Made by a program: the position numbers and the translations under genes
Notes under the pieces: model-generated
What the model saw: only the letters and a program-made list of their open reading frames with translations
Told to the model about the DNA's origin: nothing
The model's database searches: none
NCBI GenBank assembly: GCA_964017195.1
Contig: OZ024896.1
Location: forward strand, 27,317,430 to 27,381,429
DNA: 64,000 bases
Direction: 5' to 3'
Source of the DNA: Siderastrea radians
Lineage: Eukaryota > Cnidaria > Anthozoa > Scleractinia > Rhizangiidae
Shown: piece after piece, positions 4,282 to 63,880 of the stretch
Numbering within the stretch: the first letter of the stretch is position 1
How the letters are laid out: every line of letters begins with the position of its first letter

Positions 4282-7200
4282 TTATAATTTTTTGTGTTCA
4301 GGCTCTCCATACAAGTTTACTGTTAAACTAAACAGGGTCAGTGACTTACAGCCCAGAAAACAGCCGCTGATATCAAATCCAAGGCCTCTGCTTGTATCAC
4401 TGTGATCGTTAACTGCCAATCTCAGAGTTGTTAATGACTCACTTTTTGCCAAACTGTTACACAGTTCACGTAACTGCTCTTCACTAACTCCACTGCAGCT
4501 GTTAACTGTAAGACTAAGCGTAGTTAACGACTTACATTTGGCGAGACCAACACCGAGATCCTCCAACCGGACTCCACTCTTGTCACTGTAGTTGTTGATT
4601 GTAAGACTAAGCGTGGTTAATGACGAGTTACGCCCCAAACCATTATCCAGACCCAGCATCCAGTCTCCACTCACCTCACTGTAGTTGTTGAATGTAAGAG
4701 TGAGCGTGGTTAAGGACGTGTTACGCGCCAAAACAGCACCCAGACCACTCAGCATGAAGTTTCCTCTCACGTCACTGTAGTTGTTGAAAGTAAGAGTGAA
4801 CGTGGTTATTGACGTGTTACGCGCCAAACCATCACCCAGACGCAGCACCCAGTCTCCACTCACGTCACTGTAGTTGTTGATTGTAAGAGTGAGCGAGGTT
4901 ATTGACCTGTTACCCGCCAAACCATCAAACAGCTTAAACAGCATCCAGTCTTCACTCACGCCACTGTAGTTGTTGATTGCAAGATTGAGCGAGGTTAATG
5001 ACGTGTTACGCGCCAAACCATCACCCAGGCCACCCAGCGCCCAGTCTTCATTCTCGTCAGTGTAGTTGTTGTATGTAAGAGTGAGCGTGGTTATTGACCT
5101 GTTACGCGCCAAACCATTACCCAGACCCAGCATCCAGGGTCCAGTATGGCTACTGTAGTTGTTGATTGCAAGATTGAGCGAGGTTAATGATGTGTTGTGC
5201 GCCAAACCACCACCCAGACCACCCAGCACCCAGTCTCTATTAAAACAAAAGTAGCTGTTGATTGTAAGAGTTAGTTTACTTGTTCCAGTGTCCTCCACTT
5301 TGGCGAAGATTAATGGTAATACTGAAGGATCATCAATACTAAACTCAAGGCCAGCAGGACAATTATCTGACACAAACTGATGGACATTTGTGCCAAAGTT
5401 CTGGTTAACGCTGCTATTTGTTAGCTCTTGAAAAGCAGCATTTCCGACTCTGAACTCTCCCCAAATGTTGATGATTGGGTAGGACGGAGTCTTGAGAAAC
5501 CTCAGGTAGTCTGTAAGGATGTTTGCAGCAACATCAGGTATACTACCATAGATGTTAATAGTGAGACGAGAAGGAGATGATTCTTTCATGACTCTTCCCA
5601 GGGATTCTGCTGCATTGCGACTCAACTCACCCCAAAGGTCAAGTGTTAATGACTGTTGGAAATGCAACCTGTTATTCGGCAAAACAGTACAAAAACAAGC
5701 TACCTTTGCATCTGTTATGTATCCTTTGACGTTTGGATGGAACGCTAATAAACGCATTGACGTCTTTGTTGAAGATACATTCGTGACAAATGACGTCCAT
5801 CTGTCGGGGAGTTCTCCAAAGACTTTAACTTCCAAAGAATTCAAAGAGGTGTTCCGCAAGAAACCTTTTTCCATGGATGTGACACAAGATTGACTTAGTT
5901 TTCCATACACAATAAAGGAAAACGACTTTAAAACAGTTTTAGATGAAAGTCCTTCACCAACAGCAATCGCCAATGAATCCTGCATATCTCCGCAAATAAT
6001 AAGGACAAGGGAAGTCAGAAATGCATTTATTAAAATGGTTTTTATGACACGCATTGCGTTATCACTCATTGAGCCATAAATCCTGAGGACTACAGACTTC
6101 AACGGTGTATCTGCAGACAGTCGTTTTTCAAGAGCAATGGCCCATCCATCGCACGACTCTCCAGTCAATTCAAACGTTACACTTGTTAGCGTCTTACTGG
6201 CGGCCAAACAATTTCCAATAGCAACAGCTAAATCAGAAGGAAAGGACTGCAATGTTCTTAAAGTAAACGACAATAATGTCGAGTTTGCAGACAGACCTTT
6301 CATCAAAGCAGTTGCCAATGTTTCTGTAACCTCAGCTGCAGAAAAGGAAAACGTTTCCAGCTTTGGGCAGGACGCCAAGAAATCAACAAAATCATCTACT
6401 ACAGAATCTTCAAGATGAGAAGCTTCAGACACAAAAAGATGAAAGGGGTGTTCAACTTTCGAAAAGATCTTGCATTCTTTTGAAATTTTGAAAAACAACT
6501 CGCGATCATACAAACGTGCAAGATCAACTTCCACAGTCTGTGGATATGGGATGAAGGGAAATGGAATGTAGGAATTAAGAACCATCGCTATTTGCTCAGT
6601 ATTTCTACTTTCAATGAAGCATTCGGTGAAAAACGTTGCCTCCCTTTCTCCACACCCGAGCCACTGCCAATTTGCACTCTTAAGCTTTTCACCAATCTGT
6701 CTAAAAAGGATTACCGCTTTCTCACCCAATATACCACACACAAACAGAAACACCTGCCGGTATTTTACTGTAACATGTTCAAGGACGTCCAACTGAAAAT
6801 GACTTAGGACATTGATTTCTCCTCTTAATATTTTCAGTGCCAGATAAAATGCAGCCAAGTACTCTTGAAATGTTTTGTGGAAGAAGTGGTACTCGTGCTG
6901 TGGCTTAATCCTCTTCATACTGGCTTCCATAAAAACGAGGCCACTTCTTCTAGCTACTAGATCTTTATTTATGCTTTCATATCTAGCCAGTTCTCCTTCA
7001 CTAAAAGAAAAACGATCTTCCAACAGACATAGCCAAGCTAATTCGCCTAGAGCCAATAAACTGTCTTCAAATTGTTCCTCCAGAGCTTTGTCATCCTCGG
7101 GTGCTTCCAAATCATGCTTTGCGCAAAATCGTCTTAGCAGGCATCGAACAATGATCTGGTAAAGCTCAGTACGACCAGATGGAAGGTCTCCCTCGTAGTC

Positions 7201-8012
7201 CTCAAAAACAGCACAGAGAAGCAGCAAATTTAATGGATTGTTTGGTAGCGCATGGAGGAAAGAGTTCTCCTGAATTGCTTGAATGAGCCTCTCTCCCTTT
7301 GACCAGCGTTCTGCGCCGATATGCCGAAAGTGCTTCCTGATGTACTCAAAAGCATCTTTGTCTGTAAATCCTTCAATTTGCAAAAGAACGTGGAAGGGAA
7401 TATTCTGTCGTACTTTTATTCCTCTCTCCTGACGACATGTGGCAAGCAAAAAGCAAGATGGAAAAATTCGTCTGTGAAGCAATCTATCCACAAGATTTTC
7501 AGCGTGTTGAGGTAGCTCATCCATGCCATCCAAAATTATTAAAACATTCTCTTGATTGTGAATGTCCTGGATGTAGTCCATTAGCTCTTTCTTGACCGTT
7601 TCATCTTCGGGCAGAAGCTGTTCATTAATGGCTTTCATTATGTCTTCATTAATGTCGCGGCATTTCAGCAGCAAAACAATTTCAAATTCAGGAAAAGATA
7701 GGCCCTTCGGAATTTTGTCATTCGCCCAGTCATAAGCAATTTTAAGGCAGAATGTTGTCTTACCAGTTCCTGGGCTTCCCTCTACCAGCACCGCAGCATC
7801 TTCCCCTTTCGTAAGAGTGTTGAAGATGTCATACATGACCACTTCATCATTCTTTTGAAGCTGAAAGTCTGTTCTTCGTCTTGAAACGATTTTCAGTCTT
7901 GTATAGACATCTTCAAGAGGCAACTGCAAGGTGTTCTCCCAAACAAGTGGTTGTAACAGAGAACGTCTGTTGTACTCCGCCTTAAGAAATCTAACAACAG
8001 CACTACATTCAC
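4282..8012 (-). CDS. NACHT-LRR (NLR-type) receptor exon, 3' part of the GT4-NACHT-LRR gene
   Basis: This large final exon encodes about 1243 residues. A Walker A motif (GSPGTGKT) lies about 80 residues in, followed by a Walker B-type motif (LIILDGMDELP) about 75 residues later, as in NACHT STAND ATPases that switch between inactive and oligomeric states. A helical region follows, then long LRR-like repeats to the stop. No effector domain lies in this exon. A splice acceptor (cgcttatag) precedes 8012 in phase 1, which exactly fits the phase-1 donors of the small exons upstream. I therefore read it as the 3' exon of a gene with an N-terminal GT4 glycosyltransferase. The frame is open throughout. 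NLRs act as cytosolic sensors in animal innate immunity; the ligand cannot be inferred. An independent gene starting inside this exon is possible, but no N-terminal module would then be present. Confidence 0.88.
4330..5290 (-). repeat. Tandem LRR-coding repeats inside the NLR exon
   Basis: About ten units of roughly 90-100 bp encode 28-33-residue repeats. Each has a strand core like LTLTINNYS followed by a helix segment like LGDGLARNTS. Successive units share long DNA stretches (for example tgtagttgttgattgtaaga), so they were amplified or homogenised recently. Variation concentrates in the spacer between the NNYS core and the GLARN helix. The repeats form the presumed ligand-binding end of the receptor. 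Confidence 0.85.
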
Positions 8013-8929
8013 CTATAAGCGAACAACAAATCACATTTTCGTTAATTAACTGTGCCTAATTAGTTTCTGATATACAGGAATTTAATGAAACACTCTCAGC
8101 TTGGTGGCAAGAAAATATGACATCCTACAGTCAAACATCTCAAGTGTTTCGATTGCAAAATGAGAATGAATAATTTTGAAACTGAGGATGTAAAATTAAT
8201 TAATCCAATCATTAAACTGGTGTCTCCTCATAAAAAACACAACCACCATTCACTAAAATCACTAGCCTGCATCGTTCTGAAAAAAGAGAAGAAGGATGCT
8301 TTGAATGATAACTCAACATATGATTCTCTTTTTGCTAATGCCACATGCTGTTCTCTGCACAAATTACAATAAACACATCTTTTGGTTTGCTTTCATTTGA
8401 CAGTGGCCATGTGGAATGAGGGACTGATTTCATGCAGCAATCAGGACAAACTATTTATTGAGTATACAGATGCCCACAGTACGTTTGAGGTGACTGCCTT
8501 TAACTATTCCTCACGCTGGAAGCAATGCAATATGTACGACTGTAAGCACGACTGATCTGAGTTGCTTAAATTATCCTTTTTGCCCAGATTCGGGGCATTT
8601 CGAAAGAGATACGCAAGCCGGTAAGTCAGGAGGGGTTTTCTCGTGTTTTTTTTGTGTTACCTCGCCAAAGCCCAACCATGTGCTTTACTTTTGTCAAGGT
8701 TTTTTCTCACTAAAGGTTAACAAAGTTTTCTGTAGTTTTTGTTTAAAATGGCAGAACCAAGAGAGCCTGCGGCCGCAGATTTAGAGGCCTTGCAAGCCCT
8801 GGATGATCCAGTCCCACCAGCTCCACAGCCTGCTTAGGCGGCGGCAGCACCTCTGCATGAACAGTTAAATGGGGTATTTATCTGTTGTTTATTGTTACAA
8901 GGTCAGATAGGCGACGTATCTCGGCTTTA
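8013..8929. other. Intron sequence with a short unrecognised open frame
   Basis: This lies in the intron before the NACHT exon. A plus-strand open frame at 8748-8837 starts with ATG and encodes 29 Ala/Pro-rich residues. It is preceded by an exon-like segment with a ttttgcccag acceptor and a gtaagt donor near 8633. It could be a decayed transposon leader peptide or chance. I do not recognise it. Confidence 0.3.
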
Positions 8930-9327
8930 GTTTTTATGTCCGCTTATACCCTTTTGGTACGAATCGGCATGCCGTGTGTCGGCTTTGGCTTACGTTAGCC
9001 CACGTATGGAGCGCAATTTGGCAGTCGTCATGTTCGGCTCCAGCTTAACATTTGCTTTGGTGAATTGGACGCTGTGTGTCGGCTTTAGCTAAAACGTTCG
9101 CTCATTCATTGAGCATAAATTGGTAGACGCCAACGCCGTGTGTCGGCTTCAGTTTAAACGTTCGCTCATGTGTTGAGTGCAATTTGGCAGACGCCGTGTG
9201 TTGGCTGTAGTTAAAACGTTCGCTCGTTAGTCGAGCACAAATTGGCAGACGCTGTGTGTCGGCTTCAGTTTAAACGTTCGCTCGTGTGTCGAGCGCAATT
9301 TAGCAGACGCCGTGTGTCGGCTGTAGT
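8930..9327. repeat. Approx. 58-60 bp satellite, left block
   Basis: Diverged units contain gccgtgtgtcggcttcagtt, then aaacgttcgctcgtgtgtcg and agcgcaatttggcagacg. About six units are seen. The array stops at 9327 at a transposon end and resumes in the same orientation at 16209, so an insertion has split it. Confidence 0.85.
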
Positions 9328-9450
9328 CCTGGGGGGTGTACTTCCTAGTAATAGGCTAATGGGGATGTGCCGCTGCATGGGGTCGCATTTTCACAACTGG
9401 ATTGACTATCATGGGGTTGTATTTTCATTAGGAGCTAATAGAGTTATACC

Positions 9451-10207
9451 TGCAGCGTTTTTTGACCGTTTTTTTCTGTGGAGTTTTTGGTCGAGCTCGA
9501 CGTTACCTCGACTGGTTTGTTTAGCATATGTGCGTGGTTTTTATTTCCTGTTTTGTTGTGTTGAGATGAGTTCTGTTGTGTTGTGTTGCGTTGCGTTGTG
9601 TTGTAATCCATTATGTTGTGTTGCGTTGTGTTGTGTTGCGATCCGTTGTGTTGTGTCTGTTTTGTTGCGTTGCGTTGCGTTGTGTTCCGATCCGTTGTGT
9701 CGCTGTTGTGTTGTATCCGTTGAGTTGCGTTGCGTAGTGTTGTGTTGTGATCCGTGGCACGATACATGTTGTGTTGCCTTGTGCTGTGTTGTGTTGTTGA
9801 CAAGTTCAGCATTTCTAGTATTCCCTCTAATTATGTTAAAGTTGTACATTAGTAGACATACTCAACCAACCCCACTCACTGGCAGACTACACTAGATAAC
9901 TAGACAAACTCAACCACCCTTACCAAATAGATAAACTCAGCATCTTTCACTTACTTTAGGACAGTAAGAACCCCACTACGCGACCAACTCGACAAACTCC
10001 ACAACCTTCACTCACTGGCAGACAAAATCTCCTCATCTCAACACAACTCGACAAACAAAACTACCCTTACTAAACAGACAAACTTAACAATCCTCACTTA
10101 TTTTAAGACAGTACAAACCCACAACGCGACCAACTTGACAAAGTCGACTAATTGTCACGCGCTGAGGCAGACTAAAACTTCACACCTCGACGCAACTCCT
10201 CACCAAA
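9451..10207 (+). repeat. About 750-bp direct repeat, copy 1
   Basis: This segment is nearly identical to 14012-14754. It contains a transposon end, a GTTGT/GTTGC-rich low-complexity tract (about 9545-9800), and then a cluster of short acaaactc/gacaaactc motifs. Open frames in the GTTGT tract are low-complexity artefacts. Confidence 0.9.
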
Positions 10208-11341
10208 ACGGCATATTGAAGAAATTTTCGAGTGAGATGAATTTATCTTTCGGATAAAGGTTTAGTTATTTCCCTTCCTGTATCGGAGGACTTGAAGAGC
10301 TCCGTTTCGTTTGAAAGTTGTCAATTTAATCGCTCGCTTCGCATCTATTGCGGTGTTCTTGTTCATGACTTTTTCGATCTCGCTCGCGTCGTGCTTCGTC
10401 AAAGGCAGAAAGAAAAGGAAAACATCATTCTTAAACGACTTACCGAAGTAAAACTAAATTTCTAGGGAGACTTTGTCACTTCAAGAATTAACTTTCGTTG
10501 TTTTTTTTTTCTACAACAAGCCCCATGAAGAGCTCTGCTTGGGTTTGAATTTTATTTTGCAATGGCGGCCAGTCAAGTCAAATTTGTTTTGCGATTCTCT
10601 TTTCACCCAAGGTCAGCAACTTGCGATTAATAACTACATTGACCGTGGCTTGCGATTAATAATCGCGCAACGTACGATTATTAACTGTAGAATCTGTCAG
10701 ACGTAGTTAATAATCGTGGGTTTTACGATTATTAACTGTAAAGATGCGCGATTATTAATTGCAATTGACGTGTTTCGCGATTAATAACTACGAAGTACTG
10801 CTTTTCACGATTATTAGGGACAAAGTACGCATTTGCCGATAAATAATCGTGAAAAATCGTACTGCAAAAATTAAAAAACACTGCAAAACTAGATAAACCC
10901 CTGTTGTACGATCTTTGCTTGACTCGAGCAGCGCGCGCTACAAAAGTCGCATACAACAGTCGTAAGGAAAACTCGCACCGTCTAAATCGCCCCTAACGGT
11001 TCGCTGGCATGAATACACCTGGGTGGACAGAGAGAATGTGGAGCAAAGTTTCTTTTCTAAGGAAACAACACAACACCGTGTAAAGACAAGCCTGTAACCA
11101 CCGACCTCCTGATCTTTTCCAGGAAAATTAAACGCATGAAATGAGCAGTACACCACCAAGTACAATTATTACCCTTCTTTTTGTGCAGGGCCTTACACTT
11201 CCCGCGGTAAGCCTGCACACAAAGATGACTTCAGCCCTACTGTAACGCTACTCATATTCGGTTTAAAGTCAAACCAACATCAGTTACAGTTATGAGGTTT
11301 GGATTTACTGGGGAATTAATTAAGTATAATTTAATACTTAC
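10208..11341. other. Intron-like sequence between repeat copy 1 and the first small exon
   Basis: Apart from a cluster of repeated ATTAATAATCG motifs, listed separately, I see only short chance open frames here. Confidence 0.5.
10623..10851. repeat. Cluster of nine cgattattaact-type motifs on both strands
   Basis: Motifs of the form gcgattaataact, acgattattaactg or their complement agttaataatcgtg occur about every 20-30 bases, in both orientations. One is palindromic (gcgattaataatcgcg). The intervening bases are not conserved, so this is not a simple satellite. Possible readings are a protein-binding cluster, a degraded subterminal transposon array or a foldback remnant. Confidence 0.7.
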
Positions 11342-11437
11342 CCTGAATTGACTGGCTTCCACTGGTCATGTGTCTAGTTTCAGCGTCAGGACCTAAACTT
11401 CTGGAAAGTGCTTCATGGCTTGTGGATTTTTCTATCC
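11342..11437 (-). CDS. Small linker exon preceding the NACHT exon
   Basis: The acceptor (gacatatag) and donor (gtaagt) give a 96-nt exon that enters and leaves in phase 1. It is open in the frame that continues into the NACHT exon, since its final G joins GT at 8012 to make a Gly codon. It encodes 32 polar residues with no recognised domain, probably a flexible linker. Its length and phase match the 96-nt exon at 16490-16585. Confidence 0.6.
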
Positions 11438-12011
11438 CTATATGTCAAGAAAATGTAAGAAGCTTTCAATAAGTAATTTCTACTTTTAATTTTACGGGAA
11501 CGAGTGCAATAAAACCTTCAACTAAACACACACGCCTGCTATAATGTACATCAATCCACATAAGCAACAACATTTCAGAAGGTATTTACCTTCTCTGACC
11601 TCTTGTCATAATTGCTTTTCATTACTAGTTATGAGAAATGAACTACGAACATTTACCATTTTTATTACGATCTTACGTTCAAGAACCATTTCAAATTGGA
11701 ATCCTGCCATTTCTGAGGCTTCAAGGGCTTTGATCCATATGGTAGTCTTTACTCTAGGGAAAGTTTTGCAATCTTACGCCAACATAAGATCAAGGAAGCT
11801 TTGAATGCTAAGTATAACAACTGAGACTTCGAATATGTTTTCCCTTTAAAAGAGAAACTTTCCATCATCACTGACACTACCACCGCGGCCTCCGCCAATG
11901 CCACCACCAGTGCAACGGTCGTTGGCTCAACTGAACTCTTTCAGAGACTCAATCTTTTGTTTAGTCTCACTCTCTTGCCAACTTAGCAATATAGTAACCA
12001 TGAAATGTTAC

Positions 12012-12095
12012 CTGTGTCTTCCACACTCGTTAACTTGATTCGCTTGGAGTCCTGAGGGGCGGAATCCACGAGGGACACTCTCTCAACAGATGCAC
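12012..12095 (-). CDS. Small linker exon with a basic KR-containing patch
   Basis: The exon is 84 nt, with acceptor tgtacag and donor gtaaca, in phase 1 on both sides. It is open in the frame that links the GT4 exons to the NACHT exon. The peptide has a pattern SAPQDSKRIK that resembles SGTQPPKRQK of the exon at 16490-16585, suggesting exon duplication. The basic patch could be a nuclear-localisation-like signal, but that is speculation. Confidence 0.6.
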
Positions 12096-12490
12096 CTGTA
12101 CATGTATGGGAAAAAACAACCAAACAAACAAAAACAATGTCACTTGCGGGATTTGAGCCCAAGCTGCTGCTGCGCAATTAGCTACAACACTTAGAGACCA
12201 TAAGCCTTAGCCAACGTATCAGACTGCACATTATGACCATACGCAGTTTTACTGTTTCCAATCTGGAGGAGAAGTATAACGCCAACGTAAAAGGCACTGT
12301 TACATTATATACATTATGAGAATCTCAAGTAAACATGTTCACATTCTCAAACTTGTCAAGAAACGTTCAATGACTAGCAATATGAGACCAAAGATATGCC
12401 AGAATACCCAACCACACATTGCTGTGTTTTAACCTTTTCCTAGATTCTTTCAGCTGACAAGTGCTAAATGTATGTCCACACCTCTAGACC

Positions 12491-12496
12491 TTTAAT
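12491..12496 (-). terminator. Possible poly(A) signal for the TRADD-N transcript
   Basis: ATTAAA, a common variant of the polyadenylation signal, lies on the minus strand about 75 bases beyond the TGA stop of the TRADD-like exon. It supports that exon being terminal, but a hexamer in AT-rich DNA is weak evidence. Confidence 0.35.
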
Positions 12497-12571
12497 TTCT
12501 GACGCCACCTTTTAGACAAGTAAATGCTTTCTTGGGTTGAAAGGCTAAAGCTGCTTGTTCCAGATTTTCCG

Positions 12572-13023
12572 TCATTTACAAAACTCTATTAATCTTGCCA
12601 AAAATTCACCTGACATTTCCATGAGAGCCTTCTTGCACATGCGATAGTTTTTCTCTGCTATAGTTGTCACAAGTATATTAGATTCCAGACCGAGTTTCCT
12701 CCTAACTTCATTAGTCACGAGGTACCTCTCAGATACTTTATTGAGGCGACCAGTAAGACAGTCACTCCACAGCTGTTCAAGGGTGTCTAGGGTAGGGCAA
12801 CGAAGTACTATTTCCAAAGAGCCCACATTGACAGCAACTCGGTTCATGTTGTAAGCATTTTCCATATGTTTAATCAAGTCACCCAATCGTTGTAGTTCAG
12901 CTGCAGAAATGTTGTGGAATTTCGTGTACACTTGTAGTTGACGTGCTAACATTTCATTGACTATTTCCTGTTGTTCTTCACTAAGATCTTGAGATGGGCC
13001 GATTACTAGCCTGATAAGAGTGT
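12572..13023 (-). CDS. Terminal exon with TRADD-like N-terminal domain
   Basis: The exon encodes 149 complete residues and a TGA stop. It starts after the acceptor ttgattttcag in phase 1, so it can be spliced from the linker exon at 16490-16585. About 60 residues in is a motif run typical of the TRADD-like N-terminal family as found in invertebrate immune proteins: GSLEIVLRC, then LEQLW and LTGRLN, ending TIAEKNYRMCKKAL. I assign the family from memory of such sequences. TRADD-N domains mediate adaptor interactions in death-receptor signalling and occur in animal and bacterial immune-type proteins. Here the domain would end a GT4-linker protein of 634 residues, an alternative to the NACHT-LRR ending. 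The exon lies inside a transposon-bounded interval. It could also belong to a separate truncated gene. Confidence 0.65.
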
Positions 13024-14011
13024 CTGAAAATCAACATAATGGCAGGACAATGTAACAGCGCCCCTGGTACCTCAATGCATTAAACTGTTTTCATTGGGTG
13101 CTTTATCACTCGACTTTTCTATGTTAATTTGAGTCCTTTCACTTTTTTTTTGTAGTTTTCTCACAAAGAAATGTGAATCAGGCATGTGAAACCAGTTTTC
13201 ACCAAAACAGCGAAAATTAGGCATACGCCATACCGCAGTTGCTGGAACTAAACTTCTGAATTCTCCTACATTTGCTTTGTATACAGCTATTTCAATTAAC
13301 GTTGTCGTATGAATGAGACAAGATCGCAGGGTAGTATGGGATCTTCATGCCTTAGTTCACCAAAATTAGCAGTACCTTTCTTGCTGTGCAATAGCAACGC
13401 ATATGGAAGAGTTTTTATAGTATAAATATTTAAAAAAAACCTGAAAGAATTATTTTCAGATAGAGTTCTCGTTTAAAACAATTTTTAATCTCACTGATCT
13501 TTTTGCCTACTCAGTTAAAACCGCAAATTTGAATTATGTGGGTACACGTGGAGCACGTGCATTGGTATGTAAATTTGAAATAGGAAAAACAGCATCATGA
13601 AAAATATGGAACATGAATTTTCGCACATCATAACAAGTACTAACAACTGAAAATGAAAAGTAGAATCAGGATTGCCGCTGACAATAATCGGATGGTGCCT
13701 ATTTATCACTTGCACTAAGAAATCTGAAGTTCCTGACCAACTGCTGACAGCCGTAATAAGCTAAGACTGATTTGCAACTACCCACACTACCCTTCGGTCT
13801 TGTCGTGTAAGCTTGAAATGATCCGACAACCTTAATTGAAATAGCTGTATATCTTGTAGTAAAGTGCACGCGTAATCTGCGTGACTATGACCTCATGAAG
13901 TAACTTATCGAAAGCTGATAGTCTTTGTGTCCTAAATTACTGGTATAAAGTTGTTATTTATTTTGTTTATTTACCTCCCTTACGTTCACTGATGTATACA
14001 GTAGCTATATT
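13024..14011. other. Intron-like sequence
   Basis: No domain-bearing open frame or RNA gene is recognised between the TRADD-like exon and the transposon terminus at 14012. Confidence 0.5.
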
Positions 14012-14754
14012 TGCAGCGTTTTTTGACCGTTTTTTTTCTGTGGAGTTTTTGGTCGAGCTCGACGTTACCTCGACTGGTTTGTTTAGCATATGTGCGTGGT
14101 TTTTATTTCCTGTTTTGTTGTGTTGAGGTGAGTTCTGTTGTGTTGTGTTGCGTTGCGTTGTGTTGTAATCCATTATGTTGTGTTACGTTGTGTTGCGATC
14201 CGTTGTGTTGTGTCTGTTTAGTTGCGTTGCGTTGCGTTGTGTTCCGATCCGTTGTGTCGCTGTTGTGTTGTATCTGTTGAGTTGTGTTGCGTTGTGATCT
14301 GTGGCACAATACATGTTGTGTTGCCTTGTGTTGTGTTGTGTTGTTGACAAGTTCAGCATTTCTAGTATTCCCTCTAATTATGTTAAAGTTGTACATTAGT
14401 AGACATACTCAACCAACCCCCCTCACTGGCAGACTACACTAGACAACTAGACAAACTCAACCACCCTTACCAAATAGATAAACTCAGCATCTTTCACTTA
14501 CTTTAGGACAGTAAGAACCCCACTACGCGACCAACTCGACAAACTCCACAACCTTCACTCACTGGCAGACAAAATCTCCTCATCTCAACACAACTCGACA
14601 AACAAAACTACCCTTACTAAACAGACAAACTTAACAATCCTCACTTATTTTAAGACAGTACGAACCCACAACACGACCAACTCGACAAAGTCGACTAATT
14701 GTCACGCGCTGAGGCAGACTAAAACTTCACACCTCGACGCAACTCCTCACCAAA
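14012..14754 (+). repeat. About 750-bp direct repeat, copy 2
   Basis: This segment is near-identical to 9451-10207, including the tgcagcgttttttgaccg terminus, the GTTGT-rich tract and the acaaactc cluster. After 14754 the sequence continues with related cluster repeats that copy 1 lacks. Copy 2 starts exactly at a transposon terminus in otherwise unrelated sequence. With the inverted terminus ending at 15991 it forms a possible complete 2-kb element. Confidence 0.9.
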
Positions 14755-15825
14755 TAGGCAAACTCAATAATGCTCACTTTCTCTAAGACAGTAAGAACCA
14801 CACAACTCGACATACTCAACAAACCGCATTCACTGGCAGACAAAGTCTCCACGCCTCGACACAACTCGACAAACGCAACGACCCTTACCAACTAGACAAA
14901 CTCAACAAACCTCGCTCACTGGCAGACGAAATGTTCCAGACCTCGACACAACTCGACAAACACAACGAGCCTTACCAAAAAATCGATCAACAATCCTTAC
15001 ATACTATAAGACAGTACGAACCCCGCCACGCGAACCAACTAGACAAACTCGACCGACCGGCAAGGCATCTCGACAACTCGACAAAGTCAACAGACGGGTT
15101 TCACCGAACACTGTAAAGTCGGCAAACGACCAGCTCAACAAACACTGACTCTACTAGCAATTGTTTCAGACGATCATAACTCTTTCACCATTTTATTTTC
15201 ATCTATGAGCCAACTCATCAGTATATTCTTCCGAAAGATTAAACTTTCAACCCTTTAAACCCCGTTGGCTTTACTCAAAAGGTAGACCATTTTTTGCAAT
15301 TGAATATACAGTATTTGTTATGTTTTTGGGTAAAGGGGTGCCTTGTTAAAGCTTGCACCATATTTAGAGGGGCTCTGTCACCGTGATTTTCAAGTCCGGT
15401 TTTCGGTAGAAGAATATTCTGAAAAATATTTCATATATCTTTTCTCGTACACGAAATGCTCTTAGAACATTAACGGAATTAAAGGAATATATCTCTTTTA
15501 TCTTCTTATAGCAATCCTAAAAATTGTTTACGGTGCCCCTTTAAGGTTAGCAATTCTTTTTAGCATATGAAATGGTCATCAAAACGCGTTTGTTAGTGAA
15601 AGAGATGAAATTTTGGATAACTTAACCAGGGCAACTGAAGGCACATAAAAAGTCGTGATTACGAAAATTCCATGGAGAAAACGGTGTTTGCCTGTGAAGA
15701 ATACGCAGTGGAAGTTTTGTTTATTAAGTCGTCGAATTGGTCGAACTGTTGTACGTCCGTCTAGTTGTTGCGTCAAGTCGTGCAACGAAGGAACAGGAAA
15801 ACCAAGAAATTTTAAGCCAACAAAG

Positions 15826-15991
15826 TAGAGTAACAAGTAAGAGACATCACAACACATAACATCACATAACAACACAACACAACACAACACAACACAATAC
15901 GAAGCAGACAACAAAATGCAACACAACCAGTCGAGGTAACGTCGAGCTCGACCAAAACCTCCACGAAAAAAATTGCTCAAAAAACGCTGCA
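15826..15991 (-). repeat. Inverted terminus matching 9451 and 14012
   Basis: The reverse complement of this segment matches the start of the two direct-repeat copies. It reads tgcagcgttttttgagcaat, then aggttttggtcgagctcgac, and ends in a short GTTGT tract. It is the right-hand end of the inner element. Confidence 0.85.
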
Positions 15992-16208
15992 CATTTGAAT
16001 AGAGTTACTAGAATGGGGTCGCACATTTGCGGGATTTCAGGGGTACGTAAATTCCGGCAAGTAGAGATTTGGGGTATATTTGCCCAAAAGTGTCTAACAT
16101 GGGGTCTACTATTGGCTACAGAATAGACTATAATGAGGTAGGGGTTCGGAGAGGCCACCGGCACATACCCTGCAAAAATTGACCCAAGTACCCCCCCCCC
16201 CCCCCAGG

Positions 16209-16450
16209 GCTGTAGTTAAAATGTTTGCTCGTTAGTCGAGCACAGATTGCCAGAAGCCGTGTGTTAGCTCTGGCTTAAGCATGCGCTCGTGTGTCGAGAA
16301 CAAACTGGCAGATGCCGTGTGTCAGCTTTAGCTAAAACTATCGCTCGTGTGGCGAGCGCAAACTTACAGTCGCTTGTGTCGGCTCTAGTTGAACGTTCAC
16401 TCGTTAGTCGAGCATAATTTGGCTGACGAAATATTTCAAACCAGTGAGAA
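16209..16450. repeat. Approx. 58-60 bp satellite, right block
   Basis: The array interrupted at 9327 resumes here with the duplicated bases gctgtagt and continues for about four diverged units in the same orientation. Confidence 0.85.
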
Positions 16451-16489
16451 TGCAATTCTTGCTGACATATATAGCCTACTTTTTATTAC

Positions 16490-16585
16490 CTTTAGAACCA
16501 TCAGTCACGGGTTTTTGTCGCTTTGGAGGTTGAGTTCCACTGGGAGACCTTTTGCCCTTTGCTGAAATCTGACTTTCTAAAGAAC
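16490..16585 (-). CDS. Small linker exon with basic KRQK patch
   Basis: The exon is 96 nt, with acceptor ctcctctcgtag and donor gtaata, in phase 1 on both sides and open in the frame continuing from the GT4 exon. It encodes 32 residues rich in Ser, Pro, Lys and Arg. It is the branch point of the two proposed splice paths, to the TRADD-like exon or to the exon at 12012-12095. Confidence 0.6.
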
Positions 16586-17571
16586 CTACGAGAGGAGAAT
16601 TACTGTGTGAATCAGAAGTGTAATCACTTTGATTCGAGTGAAGCTCAGTGTGCTGTAACCAGTCAGATATGAGATCCTTGTGTCACTGTCTACAGAGCAT
16701 GGAAGATGAACACAAGGGTATCCCACAGCTACAAATGGCGACACCACTGAAGAGGACTCGAGCAGCAACTGTGTAAACCTTCTATCTTTCATGAAACAGA
16801 AACATTTCTTGAGGCTCACTGTGAACAATGCGTGATTTCACTCGACCATAACAACAAAATAATTATAGACTCGCTTATCTTGTCTAATGAATGTGGTCTT
16901 CTCACTTGAGTTGTAAGTAACTTTGCAAAGCACCCACTGGCACACAATACCATTCCTTGGTCAAATTTCTGGTAGATTTCTATGTTTTGCCACAAAACTG
17001 TGTTGTGAAGACATAAAAGCTTAAAATTGCCCCCTCCCCCTTTCTATGGATGATATGGTTGACCACCCCAACAAAGTTTCAAATTTGTTTTATGCTGTTA
17101 AATGCAGGCACTGTCAAGTAAGTGGTCAGCAGTGTACCAATTTGGCACATGCTTAGACAAAACAATGCATCCACACTGTAAGTTATCACAGCCTTAGCAC
17201 TTTTACTATCTATTTACATCTTTATATATTTACCGCTGTTTACCTTTTTATCTTTGTACATCTGTTTCAAAAAGCTTTTTCACACGTGTCTATATCCATG
17301 ACTTTTTATATTGGCAGCAAGTGTACAGTTTTCCTGACTTTTTTGGCGTATTTACAGACTTTTTATCCTCTCCTTCCCACCCTTTTCCAATGTAATGTCA
17401 CGTGACGTGATCTGACAGGTGATGTGAGATGTGATATAATGAAATGTGATGTGCCATAGCCTTTTTTTGTACAAGGTAAAACTCATTGATCAGTGGTGAG
17501 TGTCTGCACAGGTCCCGCACCCTTAATTGCCGTCACTAGCTAGATGATGAAAACATTTTTCATATACTTAC

Positions 17572-17676
17572 ATTCTCTTTGACTTCTTGGATATGTGGAT
17601 TCATCACAGGCTGATGATTCTGGAGGAGGCAATGGAATGTAATCTGCTACTGAGGATTGCCTGTCACCTAGGGAGA
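17572..17676 (-). CDS. Small Pro/Ser-rich linker exon
   Basis: The exon is 105 nt, with acceptor ttccttttag and a strong donor gtaagt, in phase 1 on both sides. It encodes 35 residues including a YIPLPPPESS stretch. The frame joins the GT4 exon upstream without a stop. No domain is recognised; it is a probable flexible linker. Confidence 0.65.
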
Positions 17677-18477
17677 CTAAAAGGAAACAAAATAATATTG
17701 AAGTAAGTGTGTACTGTACATATTCAAGGCAAGACGATTACAAAGCAGGGCTCAAAACTAGTTTTAAGTGACAAATACCTTCACTGGTACTTCTCTTATG
17801 GTATAAACTTTGTTATGTATCTTAAAAGATGTTAATGATCTCTTCTAAAGAATGCTTTTAAGGAAACACTTTCTCTCAGTATTCTACCTAGCAAAATTGC
17901 TTATATGTATCTCTAATTTATTTCTTTCATGCACTGAAAAAAATTCATGAAAAACAAGTGGTCTGGTTGGGTGCAAAGCCATTTTACACGAATTTATGTG
18001 AACACAGTTATGACATCTTGTAAGGATTGCTTATATAAGCCTTATTTTATAAAAGATTTATAAAACATGTACTTAGTCACGAAACCCAATGAAAATACTC
18101 TTCAAAGAGTTTGAACGAAATGAAAGTACTAACATTTACATGTATGGAAATCCTTGTCTTTGTCTTTGGTTTTCAATACACTCGCTAACCACACTGCACT
18201 CATTAATGACTAATAATCTGGCAGAATTGTAAGGGCCACCACCAGATATTGATTCAGCATTGCATTTGAACTAACTGGTCAGCAAGTTCTTGTCAGTAGA
18301 AATAAAATATCTTGCATAAATTATAAGTTTGTAATGATGGAAAAAGAATTGGGATGATCAACATTCGTAAGCTTTGTGCGCACACTTGGCTTATTAAAAC
18401 ACATGGAGTAGAAACTTTCTGGTGTTCTCAGTATGTATTGTAAAACAGCCAAACTGAATGTGGTCTCACAATACCAA

Positions 18478-18722
18478 GGCCCGGTTGTTCAAAGCAGGGT
18501 TAAGTTCACCTAGGATTACCATCCACTTTTAGTTCACTTTTAATGCACATAATGACATGGATTCCAGTATATCATTTTCACTTGACAATTTGACTCTGGC
18601 TGCTTTCAAATTGTCACATAAAATCAGCAGCGGTAACGTTTTTAAACAAAAGTCAATCAGAAACCTTAAATTAAACAACATTTAACCCAGAGCTGGCGCT
18701 AATCGGCTTTTGAATAACAGGG
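18478..18722. mobile_element. Possible MITE in the intron after the GT4 exon
   Basis: The ends are imperfect complements: ggcccggttgttcaaagc on the left and ggcttttgaataacaggg on the right. Inner motifs aggttaagttcac and ttaaccc are also roughly inverted. No coding capacity. Confidence 0.35.
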
Positions 18723-18870
18723 ATACAACTTGGATATTCAAAATTGCACACGTAGAGAAAAGGAGACATCTGCAAACAACCAATATTCTACAATGATAAC
18801 AAATGGACTTTGTGAAACTATATAATATAGAGGCAATATTATTAAAAAAGTAACAATTTATCATATATAC

Positions 18871-20104
18871 CTGCAGTGAGGTTCATCATTCTTTCCACAA
18901 GTAACTCACACTGCTTCTCCCAGCTGTACATTTTTGCATACTCTTCACAAAGAAGCTTGGATTCCTTAAGTCGTAGATCTCTTCTTTTCTGACGCACAGT
19001 CCTGATTGCCTTGGCCCACTCTTTTGGATCTTCTGAACCTACAACACAGTGTGCACCATAGGGCACATTCTTCAGAGCTTCTCCAAGGCCAGAATTAGCA
19101 CTGACAAGTATAGGCAGCCCAGCAGATAGAGCTTCAAGAGCAGCCAGCCCAAATCCCTCAGTTCGTGATGGCATTATAGCAAGATCAACCTCACAAAACT
19201 GTTTGGCTAGCTGCTCTCTTTCCTTAAAACCACGCATAGTTAGTTGATCACGGCCAATGCCTTGCTGGATCAACATCTCTGCAACTTGCTCCTCCTTTCC
19301 ACTTGGTGCACCAACAAACTTAAGTTTGTAGGGCTGTGACACATCTTTCAACTCAGCAATTGCCTTGGCAGCAATGTCACATCCCTTCAACTGAAAGTCT
19401 TCACTATCACCACATCCACAAACTAAAACAGAAAATGTTGTTCTTTCTTCAGAGGCTTGCTTTACATCAGCAAACTCGGAGAAAATCCCTGGCGTGAGAT
19501 TAAGAACATTTTCATCCTTTCCAGAGGGACGAAGATATCCTGAGAATGCGTCAGCCAGCTTGGGTCCAACTGCTACCACCTGGTCAGACAATTCACAGAG
19601 TTTTACTTCTACTTGCTGGTTTTTCTCACCTTTGGAAATGGCTTCTTCATAGTTTTTGAACATTCCAAGTTCTTCAGGGTCAGTGTGGACAACCTGAATC
19701 CACTTGCAATGATGATGCAGACGTCTTATGTGTGGCACTTGTCGACCAAGATGGACTCCATGGCCTATCACACAGTCCATAACATGATGATTTGGAACAG
19801 AGGCCAACCAACCAACTGGGTCATAACCAGGTATTTCTTCTGCTTCAATGAGATGAACATCATGTGTAGCAGCAACTCTTTTATCATCTTCACTGCACTG
19901 AGGAAGATAGACACTGACATCCACATGAGGGTGCTTAGCCAGCTGAATGGCCAGCTCCCTATTGATTGTGGACATACCACCTTTAGTTGACTGCCACTCA
20001 CTGCTTAGTAGAGTTACTCTCAATGTTCTCTTGGAGGACAAGCCAGAGTCTTCTTCTCTGTGGCTTTCCTGTGATGTAGAAGCTATGCTGAGAAAGGACG
20101 TTTC
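18871..20104 (-). CDS. GT4-family glycosyltransferase exon, N-terminal part of the GT4-NLR/TRADD-N gene
   Basis: This exon encodes 411 residues of a GT4 (glycosyl transferase group 1) enzyme. That family uses nucleotide-sugar donors in a two-Rossmann-fold (GT-B) structure. A glycine-containing N-terminal loop (STKGGMST) and the C-terminal EGFGLAALEA motif of the E-x7-E type are present, so the catalytic core looks complete. Acceptor ttatttatag and donor gtatat bound it; it enters in phase 0 and leaves in phase 1. There is no in-frame ATG before the start of the domain, so the true start lies in an upstream exon. GT4-NACHT fusions have been reported from Acropora. Substrate and donor sugar are unknown. 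The domain looks more bacterial than animal in type, but I cannot test transfer here. Confidence 0.9.
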
Positions 20105-20411
20105 CTATAAATAAAAACAAAGAGCATACTGCAAATTATTTCTAGCTCAACTTTACTACTTAAAGCTGAAGGTGTATTAGTGAAGAATCAAACATACTAG
20201 TATTAATTAAGCCAGTAACTACAGGTGCAGTGTACAGATACCTTCTAACAGCAGAAAAAACATAGGCACGCATTGCGTGCTTGACCTATGTTAAGATGAC
20301 AAGTCTTATCCTCGCTTATTTGCGATTTTTAAGACATACTCTGAGGACAAAACAACACGCGATTATTCCTGCAAATACTTCCCCCCTCCACTATAGCACC
20401 TGAGTGCATAA

Positions 20412-20620
20412 AGCCCAGTTCAGACGCCGCACCTCCCATGTGTCGTACCAAGTAGTACGCAGTTTTTTGGCAGTTGTACGGCGTCCAAATGAGTTTTTTC
20501 GACAGATTTCAATTAGGCAAGCCAAAATCTCAGGGTACGGCAAAGTTTGCCACAAATACGAACTAGGAGCGAAAATGTATTTGCTACGGCCCATGAGAGG
20601 TATGGCGTCTGAACTGGGCC
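20412..20620. mobile_element. Harbinger-like MITE with TAA target duplication
   Basis: The element begins agcccagttcagacgcc and ends ggcgtctgaactgggcc, an inverted repeat of about 16 bp. TAA is repeated at 20409-20411 and 20621-20623. A 3-bp TAA duplication fits PIF/Harbinger-type MITEs. No protein is encoded; the open frames here are shadows of its symmetry. It lies in the long intron upstream of the GT4 exon. Confidence 0.75.
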
Positions 20621-20623
20621 TAA

Positions 20624-21448
20624 AACAGCTTTTTCGTTTACTCAGCAATACCCTTGGAATGCAAAACAACATCCCGCTAAAAACCCAGTTGGACCAAAAT
20701 TGGAGATAGAGCAACCATCGGGCTAGTAGGCTACAGGCTAAAAAGTCAAACTGACACTAGAACAAAACGACTGCATAAAAACTTCCAATTAAATTTAAAA
20801 CTGAAACCTCAGTTAAGGTCAACTAATGATTGTCTGCATATTACTGAAGAAATAAATCGAGCTCACAACAAGATGTGAAAGAAACAAGTGTAGTAGATAA
20901 TAATTTGAGGAGAGGACAGTCATTGCGGTCATGTTAAAACGTAGCCTGCAGACTGTGCACACTGCAGACCATGCAGACTACGCAGACTGGTATTAATTTT
21001 TTGTTTTCTTTAAGTAAACTGTGATTTGTTGTACTTTTTAGGACTTTTCACTTTTTGTTGTGTTAAGATGACATGGCCAGCAGCTTGCCGAGTTCTCCAA
21101 AAAATGCCCCGCTGTAAGGAATTCTCGAACAATTTCGACAGAAAGATTCGCACCTTCTGGGAGTATTTCATATTCCTTTGCCAGACGATTCAAAAGTACA
21201 TTTTGGTTTTGCAGTTAACGAAGTTTCCGAGCTTGAGCGTACCATGAACTCGCTATGTTACCATATACATTACAGGTTTAAAAACCTACAGACACGCTTG
21301 AACAAGCTAATCTACGCAAATTGCTATCTTAAACATGTCGCTAAAAAATTTCAAAAACCATATGTTCCCGTATATGATAAAACCAAGAAAGAAATCATTT
21401 CTATGTCGGCTGGAAAATCTGTGGATATGACTGATATAAATCATGGAC
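20624..21448. other. Intron sequence with a diverged copy of the downstream repeat
   Basis: Within 21270-21360 is an older, diverged copy of part of the 296-bp repeat. Otherwise only short chance open frames are seen. Confidence 0.45.
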
Positions 21449-22040
21449 ACAACATCGTAAACTAAACCACATTTTGGGAAGAGAAAACAGGTTTAAAAAC
21501 CTACTGACACGCTTGAATAAACAAGTTAATTTATGCAAATTGCAATCTTATAAACACGTCGCTATAAATTTCAAATTACCAAACAAAGCTGTTTCAAAAA
21601 CCTTGCAAAGTACAGTCAAAATTATCTGTATCAAGTACAGATACAATCTTTTCAACCAACATCTTGCTAAAAGATACATAACCAAAACAGCTGTTTCATA
21701 ACACAAATCATAAAAGAACAAATTAAATTACAGTTTCTCGTCACACAACATCGTAAACTAAACCACATTTTGGGAAGAGAAAACAGGTTTAAAAACCTAC
21801 TGACACGCTTGAATAAACAAGTTAATTTATGCAAATTGCAATCTTATAAACACGTCGCTATAAATTTCAAATTACCAAACAAAGCTGTTTCAAAAACCTT
21901 GCAAAGTACAGTCAAAATTATCCGTATCAAGTACAGATACAATCTTTTCAACCAACATCTTGCTAAAAGATACATAACCAAAACAGCTGTTTCATAACAC
22001 AAATCATAAAAGAACAAATTAAATTACAGTTTCTCGTCAA
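21449..22040. repeat. 296-bp tandem duplication, two nearly identical copies
   Basis: 21449-21744 and 21745-22040 differ by about one base in the part compared. Each carries the same 75-residue open frame (21474-21701 and 21770-21997). The peptide is Lys/Asn-rich and not recognised. The open frame may be a remnant of an older repeated element rather than a gene. Confidence 0.9.
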
Positions 22041-23558
22041 CAAGTCTATTTTTGGAACGATGTTAATTGTTTTTGTCAAGTACTCACGTTCCACCGTTGG
22101 CCACGACAAAGTTCAATTTTACCCGCCCTTACAATAGCTTTAGGAAATTACCATCAATTCCACCACACCAAGCCTTTACTGAAAATATAATATTCGAGAG
22201 GAAAAAGTAGAAAAGCACATTTGCGCTGATCGTTTCCGTCCCCATATGTACATTCGACATGGCCGGTAAGCTTAACCTTGTCTGGCCTTCAACTTCAGTA
22301 TGTGGATTCCAACCAGCTCTTTCATTGGTAGAATGTACTCTTAGCTTAGTAGCCTCAAGCTGATTGGTGCCACATAGTGCCACATAAATTCCCCCGGGGG
22401 GTGTACTCCCATGTGAAAGGTGCCTGGATGCACGTCGTCTTGCGTTCTCCGTCTGTTTTAGCATAGCTTTAATTTAAATTTTCCGACGAGCATTCCCGCC
22501 CGTCTCACATGAGATTTCCCCCGGATCAAAAATACATACATACATACAAACAAACATAGAAAGCGAAAAACTTTACGCTGGCTAAGACCCTATGTTTTCA
22601 ACATAGGTCAACTAGAGACATTAAGATGCCATTGACAATAGCATTTTGCACAATTGACGACACAAATTTCCAAGCCCTGCTGTACATGACTCACACAACA
22701 ATTAAACTGATCCATGTGTCACATGTATAATAATGTTCTATGGAGAAGTAGTGTTTGCAAGCACTTCTTTGTGGCTAATTCAAGGACTTTTTGGCAAAAA
22801 GCCAAAACACTCAGGTCAATGCTGAAGAGTTAACCTACAAATTATTCCTTGGAGCTACTGAATCATTGGTGAATGTGCAAAGAATTGAGATATAGCAGCC
22901 GCAACTTTGTAGTGTCTCAGAAAGAATTGCAACATATGACTGAGATTGGAAACAGTAGCATTTAGAACACGATACTATTAAAGCAGACAATAAAAAAAAT
23001 AGGTTTGAATGACAGAAAAGAAACAATAATCTATCCTTTGTTCCAAGGACGCATGATTTCTTCAGTCAGTGTTATGTTCCACAAAATCAATGATACAGTA
23101 CATGTATCGCTGCCTTGTTTCATACCTGACATCCTCACTGACTGTTGCTCAGCAACAGACAGCTAGGAGCAAGGTTTAGAAATCTGGGAATATTACTGTT
23201 AAAATTCAAAAGTCATACACAACTACTCTTGAAATCTTGCACTCACACTAATATGAAGGGAACTACAGTATGCACAGCATAGGCCACAGCTTTCAGCAGG
23301 TAGTAATATCTTAAAGAGCCCTAAAATAATCTTGAAATCTGACAGGAAGGTGTAACTTTTAGGGACCCCTTAAAACTATCAATAATGATATTGAACAGAA
23401 AAAGAAAAGTGTGCAATGTACAAATACCAAAAACTTAACTCTAATTTTCAGGAGGACATAAACCTACTGACTCATGCATCTTTTTACATGTCTCTCGTGT
23501 CTCTCTATACAGGAAAAAATAAAACCAACAGATAACAATTAAAAAATGTAATAATCAC
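22041..23558. other. Intron sequence without a recognised feature
   Basis: No supported gene. A 37-nt exon-like segment near 23126-23162 (minus strand) has splice-like ends, but it cannot join the GT4 exon in frame. Confidence 0.4.
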
Positions 23559-23586
23559 CTTTGGTAGCCTCGACATCACAGGAAGC
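23559..23586 (-). CDS. Putative first coding exon of the GT4 gene
   Basis: A 28-nt segment has acceptor aaagattaaag and donor gtgatt. It contains an ATG at 23574-23576 that gives six codons and ends in phase 0. This matches the phase-0 entry of the GT4 exon and supplies a start codon, so splicing yields an open frame of 634 or 1787 residues. Evidence is only splice consensus and phase; such short matches can occur by chance. Confidence 0.4.
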
Positions 23587-24254
23587 CTTTAATCTTTAAC
23601 ACTGCTGTTGATGTTGTTGTTGACACTAAAAACAATCAGTTATTTATTTCTATTAATGTTATTTTGACAGTCTCAAATTTAACATGCTTATAAATAATAT
23701 AAATAAAATTATGTGGCTAAAATAATTTAATTTAGGCAAAGGTTAATCTCGAGCCAATGCAGCCAGCAGTCTCTGCCATAACTGTATGTGACCTGAGGGG
23801 TGGTCACAGGGGCTACTTGCTTATCATGCACTGTTCATTTCCATTGCTTTTTTTTTCAGTGTTAAATTGATCGTTGCAGCTCTCTAGCCTTTTTGACTTG
23901 TTCAAGTGAATTGTTGCGTATTCTGGTCCCACCCCCTCCCTCCTTTTTATGGGGTTCTCTGTGCAAGGTAAGTATCAGTTGGGTTAGTATTTTTTCCCAC
24001 CTAAACTCCTTCAGTGTGACAGTGCCCATTGGTGGCTGCTTGCAGTGGTGGTTACTGCTCACAGGGTTGCCATGGTTACATTCCTGCTGCGCCTGTAACA
24101 GTTCCCAACCTCACCAACTGGCGGTGAGTTTAATATTGGCTTAACTTTAAGATTTGAATAACAGATGCATTCAATTTTCTTAATTCCCAGATCTAGAGCT
24201 ACCTGTACGATCTGTACAATCATACAACAAGACAATTCTCATTATTTCCCTGAA

Positions 24255-24885
24255 TTAACCCATTGACTCCTGGACATTTTGCCAAAAAATGCCTTTCGAA
24301 GCGAGTCAAGCAGTTTTTAGGCCGCTGTCTAGCCGAAAAGAATCCAAACTGTCCAAAGCGTTGTTTGCAAGTTGAGCACTGGCCTAGCTTTTGTTCCTGA
24401 TGCCAAATTACAGCTTTCAAAGTTCGGGCATGCGCAGAAAGCAAAATTTGGAGATCGTTTTTTTTTCGAGAAAGTTTCGCTGCCCTTTCGTCTTTTACCT
24501 TTTCCTTTCTCCCCTCCCCGCTTCTTTTGCTTTTCTTTCCCCCCTTTTTTTCTTTTGTGGGGCATTTACTAGGCTACCTTTTGGTGGGAAAAGATTTTGC
24601 AAAACGTTCGAGGATCGTGAATTTTTTTTGAACGAAGTACCAGTGGGTAGTGGGACAAGATTTTCATTGGAATTTTCTGCTCAAAGTTACACGGTTTATT
24701 GCGTCTTTCTCTGGTCTGTTTGACTGAATCGCGCTCATTTGGGTATGGCTTGAAAGATCTCATCTCCCCGCACAAGGTAGTTGTCAAAGTTGTCCAGGAC
24801 CGTTAAAACTGATGACGTCACAAGTGGTACAAGGGACGTAGTTAAAGAAGGGCGGTTACGGGCGGTTCAGGGGTCAATGTGCTAA
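24255..24885. mobile_element. Possible TTAA-type MITE
   Basis: The left end reads ttaacccattgactcctg and the right end caggggtcaatgtgctaa, an imperfect inverted repeat of about 18 bp. The left TTAA recalls piggyBac-type elements, but the right end reads CTAA. Internal poly-pyrimidine tracts produce spurious open frames. Confidence 0.5.
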
Positions 24886-26416
24886 TTTGTGTGGCAATGA
24901 ACATTGCTGCATCAAACATTTTTTCAAGTTTCTAACACCACTTCCAAGTCTCTTTTCCCTTCAGATCTTGAAGGTAGTACAATCATAGCTGTAATTGTGT
25001 CTCAGAAGTCACACAAACCATTTTAATTTTTTTTTTTGCCACTCAGCCATTCAACAATCATCCCAATAAGTGTCACATAAAACTCCTCCCCTCCCACCCC
25101 TGTTTTTTTTTTTTTTCACTTTTTTTTTGTTCTTGTGAATCCAGCATTAATGTCCCTGTTCCGTATTTATCCGCAAGAGTCACGCAATCAGAGTTGGTAC
25201 ACAGAGGCAAAATAAACAACAACTGTATGGCATAATAGGGGGGAACACAGCCCTGTGGCAGGTAACACGCGACTTCAGGATATGCACACAAAAACTAAGC
25301 CTCACTTGTCTCCCCAAAACTTGGGGATTAGGACAAGAGTATTGGCAGAGCCTTTCTTATCTCCCCAGCACCACACGGGCTGGATCGGACAAGATTAAGG
25401 CAAAGGTATAAGATGGCAAGACACAAGCAATGCCAAAAGCTTGGGGGAAGTCGCTACGCAGACTTAACCGAACCACAAGGAGTGACCCCCGTTTATTGAA
25501 AGAAAGCAAATACCTACTGTAGCATTACCCGCCTCCAAAGGGAGGGAGGGTGAGAAAAAAAAACTGAACAAATTTGTTACAAAGTGCACTCGCTCTTTCG
25601 AGACTACGACAATATGACTTAAACTATCGTGTTGCTGCTTTTATAGCAAGACAGTGTCTCTGAGTTTGTCCAATGAGCAATCTCGTACTATGAAGTAAAT
25701 AGACACAACGTGGAAAACTACTAGCCATGAATAAGGCTTTTAAATAGTAAGAGCCAATGCATGTTAAGTTTAGATATATTTCTAGACTACGTTGCAACAT
25801 AACGGAAGGGATTCTAGACATGAAAGGTAATTCTTATGAGCTTATACACATGGATTATTGATTTGTGAATAGAGGTTTATTATTGAATGTTGTTGAGCAA
25901 AGCTTATGTCTGACCTACCACCCCTGGGGTGTCACGTTCCATTAACCGCATTTTACCGATTTCCGGTAAAAGCCGTATTAAAATAATCAACCCACTTTTC
26001 ATTCTCCAAGGGAAACCTTCTCCTGTTTTGGCTGTAACCAGAAGGGCATAGATCTGGGCTTCTCACTTTAGAGGAAATGCAAACTGCACCTAATGTTTTA
26101 AAACTTAATGGGAAAATATGCCTCCAAGGAGGCATCAATAGGTTTTATTAAAAAGTCCTGACATCTGGCCTTGCAACGTTTAAAAGAAATGCGTGGAGAT
26201 CACTCCTACATGTACAGCTGGAATCCTTTGAAACTTAATGAGCAAACATGCCTCCAGGATGGCTGCTTTTCAATGTCAGGGAAAAAGCCCATTGGCATGC
26301 AAGGCAGCGCTGCAGCAGGTTTGGTCATTACACACGTAGTTATTTAAAGTGTGCCATCTCATCACATGCAATAGCTATAAAAATGCAATAGTTCAGAAAT
26401 CTAGCATGCAACTTAC
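24886..26416. other. Stretch with no supported gene
   Basis: Simple T-rich runs and short open frames only. Nothing recognisable. Confidence 0.5.
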
Positions 26417-26492
26417 CAAGTCTTACTACAGGTGCAATTTGACATCTTGATCCTATACATGAACAATGATCATGACTGACAATCTGCTGCAG
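26417..26492 (-). other. Possible 5' untranslated exon of the GT4 gene
   Basis: A 76-nt segment on the minus strand has acceptor gtgtattttaag and a strong donor gtaagt. It lies upstream of the putative first coding exon. No coding role is required. Chance occurrence is quite possible. Confidence 0.25.
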
Positions 26493-26604
26493 CTTAAAAT
26501 ACACTGCAAGACAAACAGTCAGTCAATTGTTACTGTAGCATAAGTGCAAGACAAGGACAAACAGTGTTTGCCTGCGAAGCAAGAACTCAACAGGAGTGAA
26601 TAGG

Positions 26605-26752
26605 CAATCAAGAAGATACATGTAGCTGTTTTAACTAACATTGTTAGAGGAAGGGCTACTTCAAGCCTGTGTGCACACCAATCAAGAAGATACATGTAGC
26701 TGTTTTAACTAACATTGTTAGAGGAAGGGCTACTTCAAGCCTGTGTGCACAG
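26605..26752. repeat. 74-bp perfect tandem duplication
   Basis: The unit beginning caatcaagaagatacatgta occurs twice back to back, starting at 26605 and 26679. The copies look identical, so the duplication is recent or an assembly artefact. Confidence 0.9.
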
Positions 26753-26844
26753 CAAGGTGATTGGGTCTTTATAGATGGAAATACATTTGTCAAAATCTGC
26801 ATAATGTCACCAGCTTTCCGACAAAAATATACTCATACAGGGGG

Positions 26845-29059: not shown

Positions 29060-29091
<32 letters not shown>

Positions 29092-63848: not shown

Positions 63849-63880
63849 CAGTTCATAGGAGACGCCATTTTGAAATTTTT

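Follow-up and report, generated by a model that had tools for sequence, protein, structure and literature searches.

A Siderastrea radians locus that probably encodes a single NLR-type protein with GT4, TRADD-like, NACHT and LRR parts

Introduction

The closest known counterparts of the locus reported here are found in another coral, Acropora, where NLR proteins reportedly combine a glycosyltransferase and a NACHT domain in one protein (work said to be that of Hamada and colleagues in 2013); TRADD-N has reportedly been treated by Kaur and colleagues. We analysed a 64,000-nucleotide stretch of the Siderastrea radians genome (assembly GCA_964017195.1, contig OZ024896.1, positions 27,317,430 to 27,381,429 of the forward strand), hereafter the window, in which one minus-strand gene probably encodes a single NLR-type protein with the order GT4–TRADD-like–NACHT–LRR and a length of at least 1919 residues.

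A comparison with known systems highlights both similarities and differences. As in the Acropora proteins, a glycosyltransferase and NACHT would be joined in one protein; in the Siderastrea locus a TRADD-like exon stands between the two. When set beside vertebrate NLRs (NAIP, NLRP3, NLRP6 and the structure 5irl, which we take to be NOD2), the NACHT domain and the domains following it are alike by sequence, but the N-terminal modules differ, with GT4 and the TRADD-like part standing here in place of the CARD, PYD and BIR modules of the vertebrate proteins. Finally, the locus shares with the GT4-conflict family (PF20706) both the profile match and E-x7-E, the catalytic motif of GT4 enzymes, although the domain would here be joined to NACHT-LRR, unlike in a 1637-residue Rhizobium plasmid protein of the same family.

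Exon chain and reading frames

All coordinates are positions in the window, and all seven exons lie on the minus strand. The chain opens with the GT4-conflict glycosyltransferase exon (18871-20104, 1234 nt), which leaves with one base, that is, in phase 1. It continues through the linker exons L1 (17572-17676, 105 nt) and L2 (16490-16585, 96 nt), the TRADD-like exon in its internal form (12610-13023, 414 nt) and the linker exons C1 (12012-12095, 84 nt) and C2 (11342-11437, 96 nt), each of which runs from phase 1 to phase 1. The NACHT-LRR exon (4282-8012, 3731 nt) enters with two bases and contains the stop codon of the gene. All six introns between GT4 and NACHT are phase 1. An original prediction for this locus had listed the same seven exons, giving the TRADD-like exon a longer form (12572-13023, 452 nt) that enters with two bases and ends in a stop; its coordinates, AG/GT borders and phases are all exact, and GT4 does leave in phase 1, the linkers keep that phase, and both the TRADD-like exon and C1 accept it.

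With the TRADD-like exon cut at 12610 and joined to C1, C2 and NACHT, the frame is open over 1919 residues without a first exon. Counted in the same way, the frame ending in the TRADD-like exon is open over 628 residues, and the frame that skips this exon and ends in NACHT-LRR over 1781. The totals of 634 and 1787 residues predicted earlier hold as far as these open frames go, while the additional six residues belong to an unsupported first exon encoding MSRLPK. Among the 226 possible first exons scored from 20104 to 30000, this one (ATG at 23576) came 16th and was left out. Further upstream, a scan of the minus strand for internal exons (20.2-34 kb, any phase pair) gave its best score, 9.7 bits, at 25306-25379 and its next best, 8.2 bits, at 29746-29812, a candidate that leaves in the phase accepted by GT4. 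A 296-bp unit is also duplicated in tandem upstream of the GT4 exon (21447-22043, 99% matching).

The interval from the donor of GT4 to the acceptor of NACHT contains 3710 open AG..GT candidates of 45-450 nt in all nine phase classes, which we scored against codon use derived solely from the GT4 and NACHT exons (combined training). The top five non-overlapping candidates were the TRADD-like exon cut at 12610 (15.3 bits), C2 (15.3), C1 (12.4), L1 (10.2) and L2 (6.6, the lowest of the five); all are phase 1/1, and the sixth candidate reached 4.8 bits. Training on GT4 alone put the identical five in the lead. A nested version of L1 (17572-17619) was close in score to L1 itself and scored higher under two of four scorings.

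The internal exon chain stands well above its controls. At a threshold of 6.5 bits the locus contains five distinct phase-1/1 candidates, compared with none on the opposite strand (10.9 kb), none on the plus strand at 24.6-34.5 kb and none on the minus strand at 20.2-24.6 kb. Forty simulated introns of equal length, trained on a stretch (13100-18840) that contains L1 and L2, yielded a mean of 0.175 such candidates and a top single score of 10.1 bits. The joining of GT4, the TRADD-like exon and NACHT-LRR in one minus-strand gene is the part of the original prediction that splice and coding signals support well. A tblastn search within the window returned no second copy of the seven exons, the two weak additional rows being a TRADD-like match that falls within the NACHT exon (7335-7511, E 0.097) and an L2 match at 58058-58102 (E 0.25).

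A donor inside the TRADD-like exon

The original prediction overlooked a donor, CAG/GTGAAT, that follows base 12610 within the TRADD-like exon. It scores 4.6 bits, which places it 21st among the 4033 minus-strand GT sites of the whole window. As this donor keeps phase 1, splicing could carry the TRADD-like exon onward in frame into C1, C2 and NACHT, and the segment beyond it (12572-12609, minus strand), which runs 12 codons to the stop, would be used only if the donor were not. These 12 codons have a coding score of -0.4 bits and carry no coding signal. In 20000 codon shuffles, an equally strong phase-keeping donor fell within the last ~60 nt of the exon in 2.1% of cases.

The stop itself looks like one met by reading through into an intron, because all six donors of the chain read into a stop within a few codons: after 9 codons for GT4, 10 for L1, 4 for L2, 12 for the TRADD-like exon, 9 for C1 and 3 for C2. 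Although the TRADD-like case is the longest of the six, the chance of a stop within 12 codons in local intron sequence is about 0.5, which it fits. Since the stop looks intronic and the donor is in phase, a single protein is the simplest model and in our view the most likely one, whereas alternative 3' ends need an additional assumption.

Domains encoded by the exons

In Pfam, residues 33-400 of the 411-residue GT4 exon product match GT4-conflict with 267.6 bits, far above the cut-off of 26. Its E-x7-E motif is kept as EGFGLAALE at residues 316-324, aligned to the same motif in a bacterial member, and would fit an active enzyme. Distant relatives of this exon occur in six plasmid records, five from Rhizobium and one from Sinorhizobium. 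An alignment of 343 columns shows 27% identity between the exon product and the GT4-conflict domain in the 1637-residue Rhizobium protein (L001:1281-6191), where that domain occupies residues 1242-1630 at 377.6 bits; at E 0.01, Pfam gave five rows for the Rhizobium protein, all of them glycosyltransferase domains with their best stretches inside that same part. Among prokaryote genome contigs no GT4 relative was confirmed from 323 pattern matches, and in viral contigs none was confirmed for GT4, the TRADD-like exon or NACHT (3, 5 and 1 pattern matches, respectively). PADLOC gave no row for the GT4 or TRADD-like exon and a single weak one for NACHT (mad8, E 0.0044).

The NACHT domain matches its Pfam profile at 87.6 bits (cut-off 26.7), with a Walker A motif (GSPGTGKT) at residue 78 and a Walker B motif (LIILDGMDE) at residue 157 of the exon product. 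This product has no methionine ahead of residue 59, a feature that favours the single protein. A sequence search of the PDB at E 0.001 returned 16 distinct sequences, mostly NLRs, four of them being LRR proteins without a NACHT match. Among the matches are 5irl_A (1.8e-11), 8fvu_A (Baculoviral IAP repeat-containing protein 1, 3.9e-10) and 9ok7_A (NLRP6, 8.6e-10). The 3' part of the exon holds about seven 96-nt repeats in an array at 4572-5237, and Pfam LRR_8 and LRR_4 stay under their cut-offs for this exon despite the LRR chains matched in the PDB.

A proposed mechanism

Such a protein would probably work as an NLR. In this model, the LRR part would respond to a ligand or to a disturbed state of the host, after which the NACHT domain would oligomerise in an ATP-driven manner and cluster the N-terminal modules. 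The clustered TRADD-like domain could then recruit signalling partners, and the GT4 enzyme, with its E-x7-E motif, might act as an effector by glycosylating a nearby target. A short GT4–TRADD-like form, made when the donor after 12610 goes unused, would be at most a minor product. The sequence supplies the domains, frames and candidate splice sites of this model; the steps of sensing, clustering and target glycosylation are inferred from the families concerned. If the model is true, a glycosyltransferase and a TRADD-like adaptor placed before one NACHT-LRR would combine sensor, signaller and effector in one compact protein, and would link conflict glycosyltransferases of bacterial type to animal NLRs.

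Evidence against the single protein and alternative readings

A number of observations weigh against this reading, the first group of them concerning the identity of the TRADD-like domain. The Pfam check proposed with the original prediction gave TRADD-like_N (PF20694) 13.3 bits against a cut-off of 23.7. Its E-value of 0.074 (24736 models) would, by our arithmetic, amount to about 3e-6 for this single model, which had been named before the search; this speaks for the match, but DUF1687 does almost as well on the same exon (0.11, also below cut-off). The E-value of an NCBIfam row for LeoA dynamin-like (0.0046) is better than that of TRADD-like_N, the row itself being dropped for a score far too low (16 bits, cut-off 325). 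In a structure comparison, TRADD was absent from the rows listed for the uncut model. Beyond these points, TRADD had a Z score tied with unrelated rows in the structure comparison, Foldseek returned no row at E <=0.001 for either the cut or the uncut model, and phmmer against the PDB gave two rows only (E 1.1 and 1.2). In favour of the single protein, the predicted model has a mean confidence of 64.5 when cut at the donor, compared with 58.9 uncut. We regard the TRADD identity of the exon as weak, and because the Pfam score lies below the cut-off we use the name "TRADD-like" only.

The second group concerns the gene model. The first exon was not located among the candidates between 20104 and 30000. 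Scoring relied on generic splice matrices and on an intron background taken from this very locus. When codon use was learnt from NACHT alone, C2, the TRADD-like exon and C1 still led, followed by nested L1 and two unrelated candidates, with L2 seventh. Splice signals by themselves gave the order C2, nested L1, an unrelated candidate (11106-11212), the TRADD-like exon, L2 and C1. The minus strand at 24.6-52 kb (27.4 kb) yielded three candidates of at least 6.5 bits, the strongest of which, at 13.7 bits, outscored C1; these may be real exons or chance. A phase-keeping donor as good as that at 12610 arose somewhere in the TRADD-like exon in 14% of 5000 codon shuffles. Lastly, an ATTAAA at 12496 lies 76 nt beyond the TRADD-like stop, and for none of the other five donors does such a site occur within 300 nt of the stop reached by read-through.

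The stop and the ATTAAA belong to the original prediction, which held that alternative 3' ends yield either a GT4–TRADD-like adaptor or a GT4-NACHT-LRR receptor, each with a first exon added to the shorter frames given above. Both reading frames hold exactly and stay open, L2 can join either acceptor in phase 1, and the stop and the ATTAAA do stand behind the domain, as had been stated. Set against this are the strong phase-keeping donor 12 codons ahead of that stop, the read-through stops shared by all six donors, and the probability of 0.12 that a site of the A[AT]TAAA type occurs by chance within 80 nt of local intron sequence. We therefore consider that a choice of tail, adaptor or receptor, is not well supported and that this alternative is unlikely. 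The adaptor isoform depends on a stop that resembles an intron stop. The present analysis yields precise junctions.

Two direct repeats flank the cassette formed by the TRADD-like exon, C1 and C2; one lies in the intron that follows L2 (14003-14754) and the other in the intron that precedes NACHT (9442-10207). The copies are 95.8% identical, have the same orientation and carry TGTTG-type arrays. Recombination between them would be expected to delete three exons and leave GT4-L1-L2-NACHT, with the frame surviving because every intron from GT4 to NACHT is phase 1. A modular gene of this kind, in which splicing or recombination switches in frame between GT4–TRADD-like–NACHT–LRR and GT4–NACHT–LRR, with an adaptor-only form where the donor after 12610 is unused, appears to us an unlikely reading.

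Quite unlikely, in our judgement, is a simple cassette exon, whose inclusion would give GT4–TRADD-like–NACHT–LRR and whose skipping GT4–NACHT–LRR, with no adaptor-only product. The loss of the exon would preserve the frame across introns that are all phase 1, and the TRADD-like acceptor is the weakest among the six ranked (18th of 686), but the whole-exon score of the TRADD-like exon equals that of its best neighbour. Separate adjoining genes for the GT4, TRADD-like and NACHT-LRR parts, each with its own start, would accommodate both the missing GT4 first exon and the ATGs that stand in phase with donors inside the TRADD-like exon and C2 (the latter, at 11369, preceding the best donor of the interval), but, judged from the internal and first exons scored here, are very unlikely: one phase runs unbroken through the linkers from GT4 to NACHT, and phase 1/1 is the class in which these linkers score highest.

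Other features of the window

The window begins with 4.9 perfect tandem copies of a 59-bp unit (1-292). On the plus strand, an open reading frame of 332 residues at 40037-41035 gave sub-threshold rows only, including coiled-coil families and Transposase_22 (L1 RBD-like). Long open reading frames at 44970-46527 (plus) and 51133-54146 (minus) consist largely of repeats such as YTQLYMAIHGYT, in both orientations. Pieces of DUF6589 lie on the plus strand within 58407-60907, the one at 59987-60907 scoring 92.5 bits, above the cut-off of 27, and that at 58407-58832 scoring 24.7 bits, below it. Towards the end of the window, two open reading frames on the minus strand (61567-63878) match DEAD (63300-63878) and Helicase_C (61567-62844) and are possibly exons of one helicase gene.

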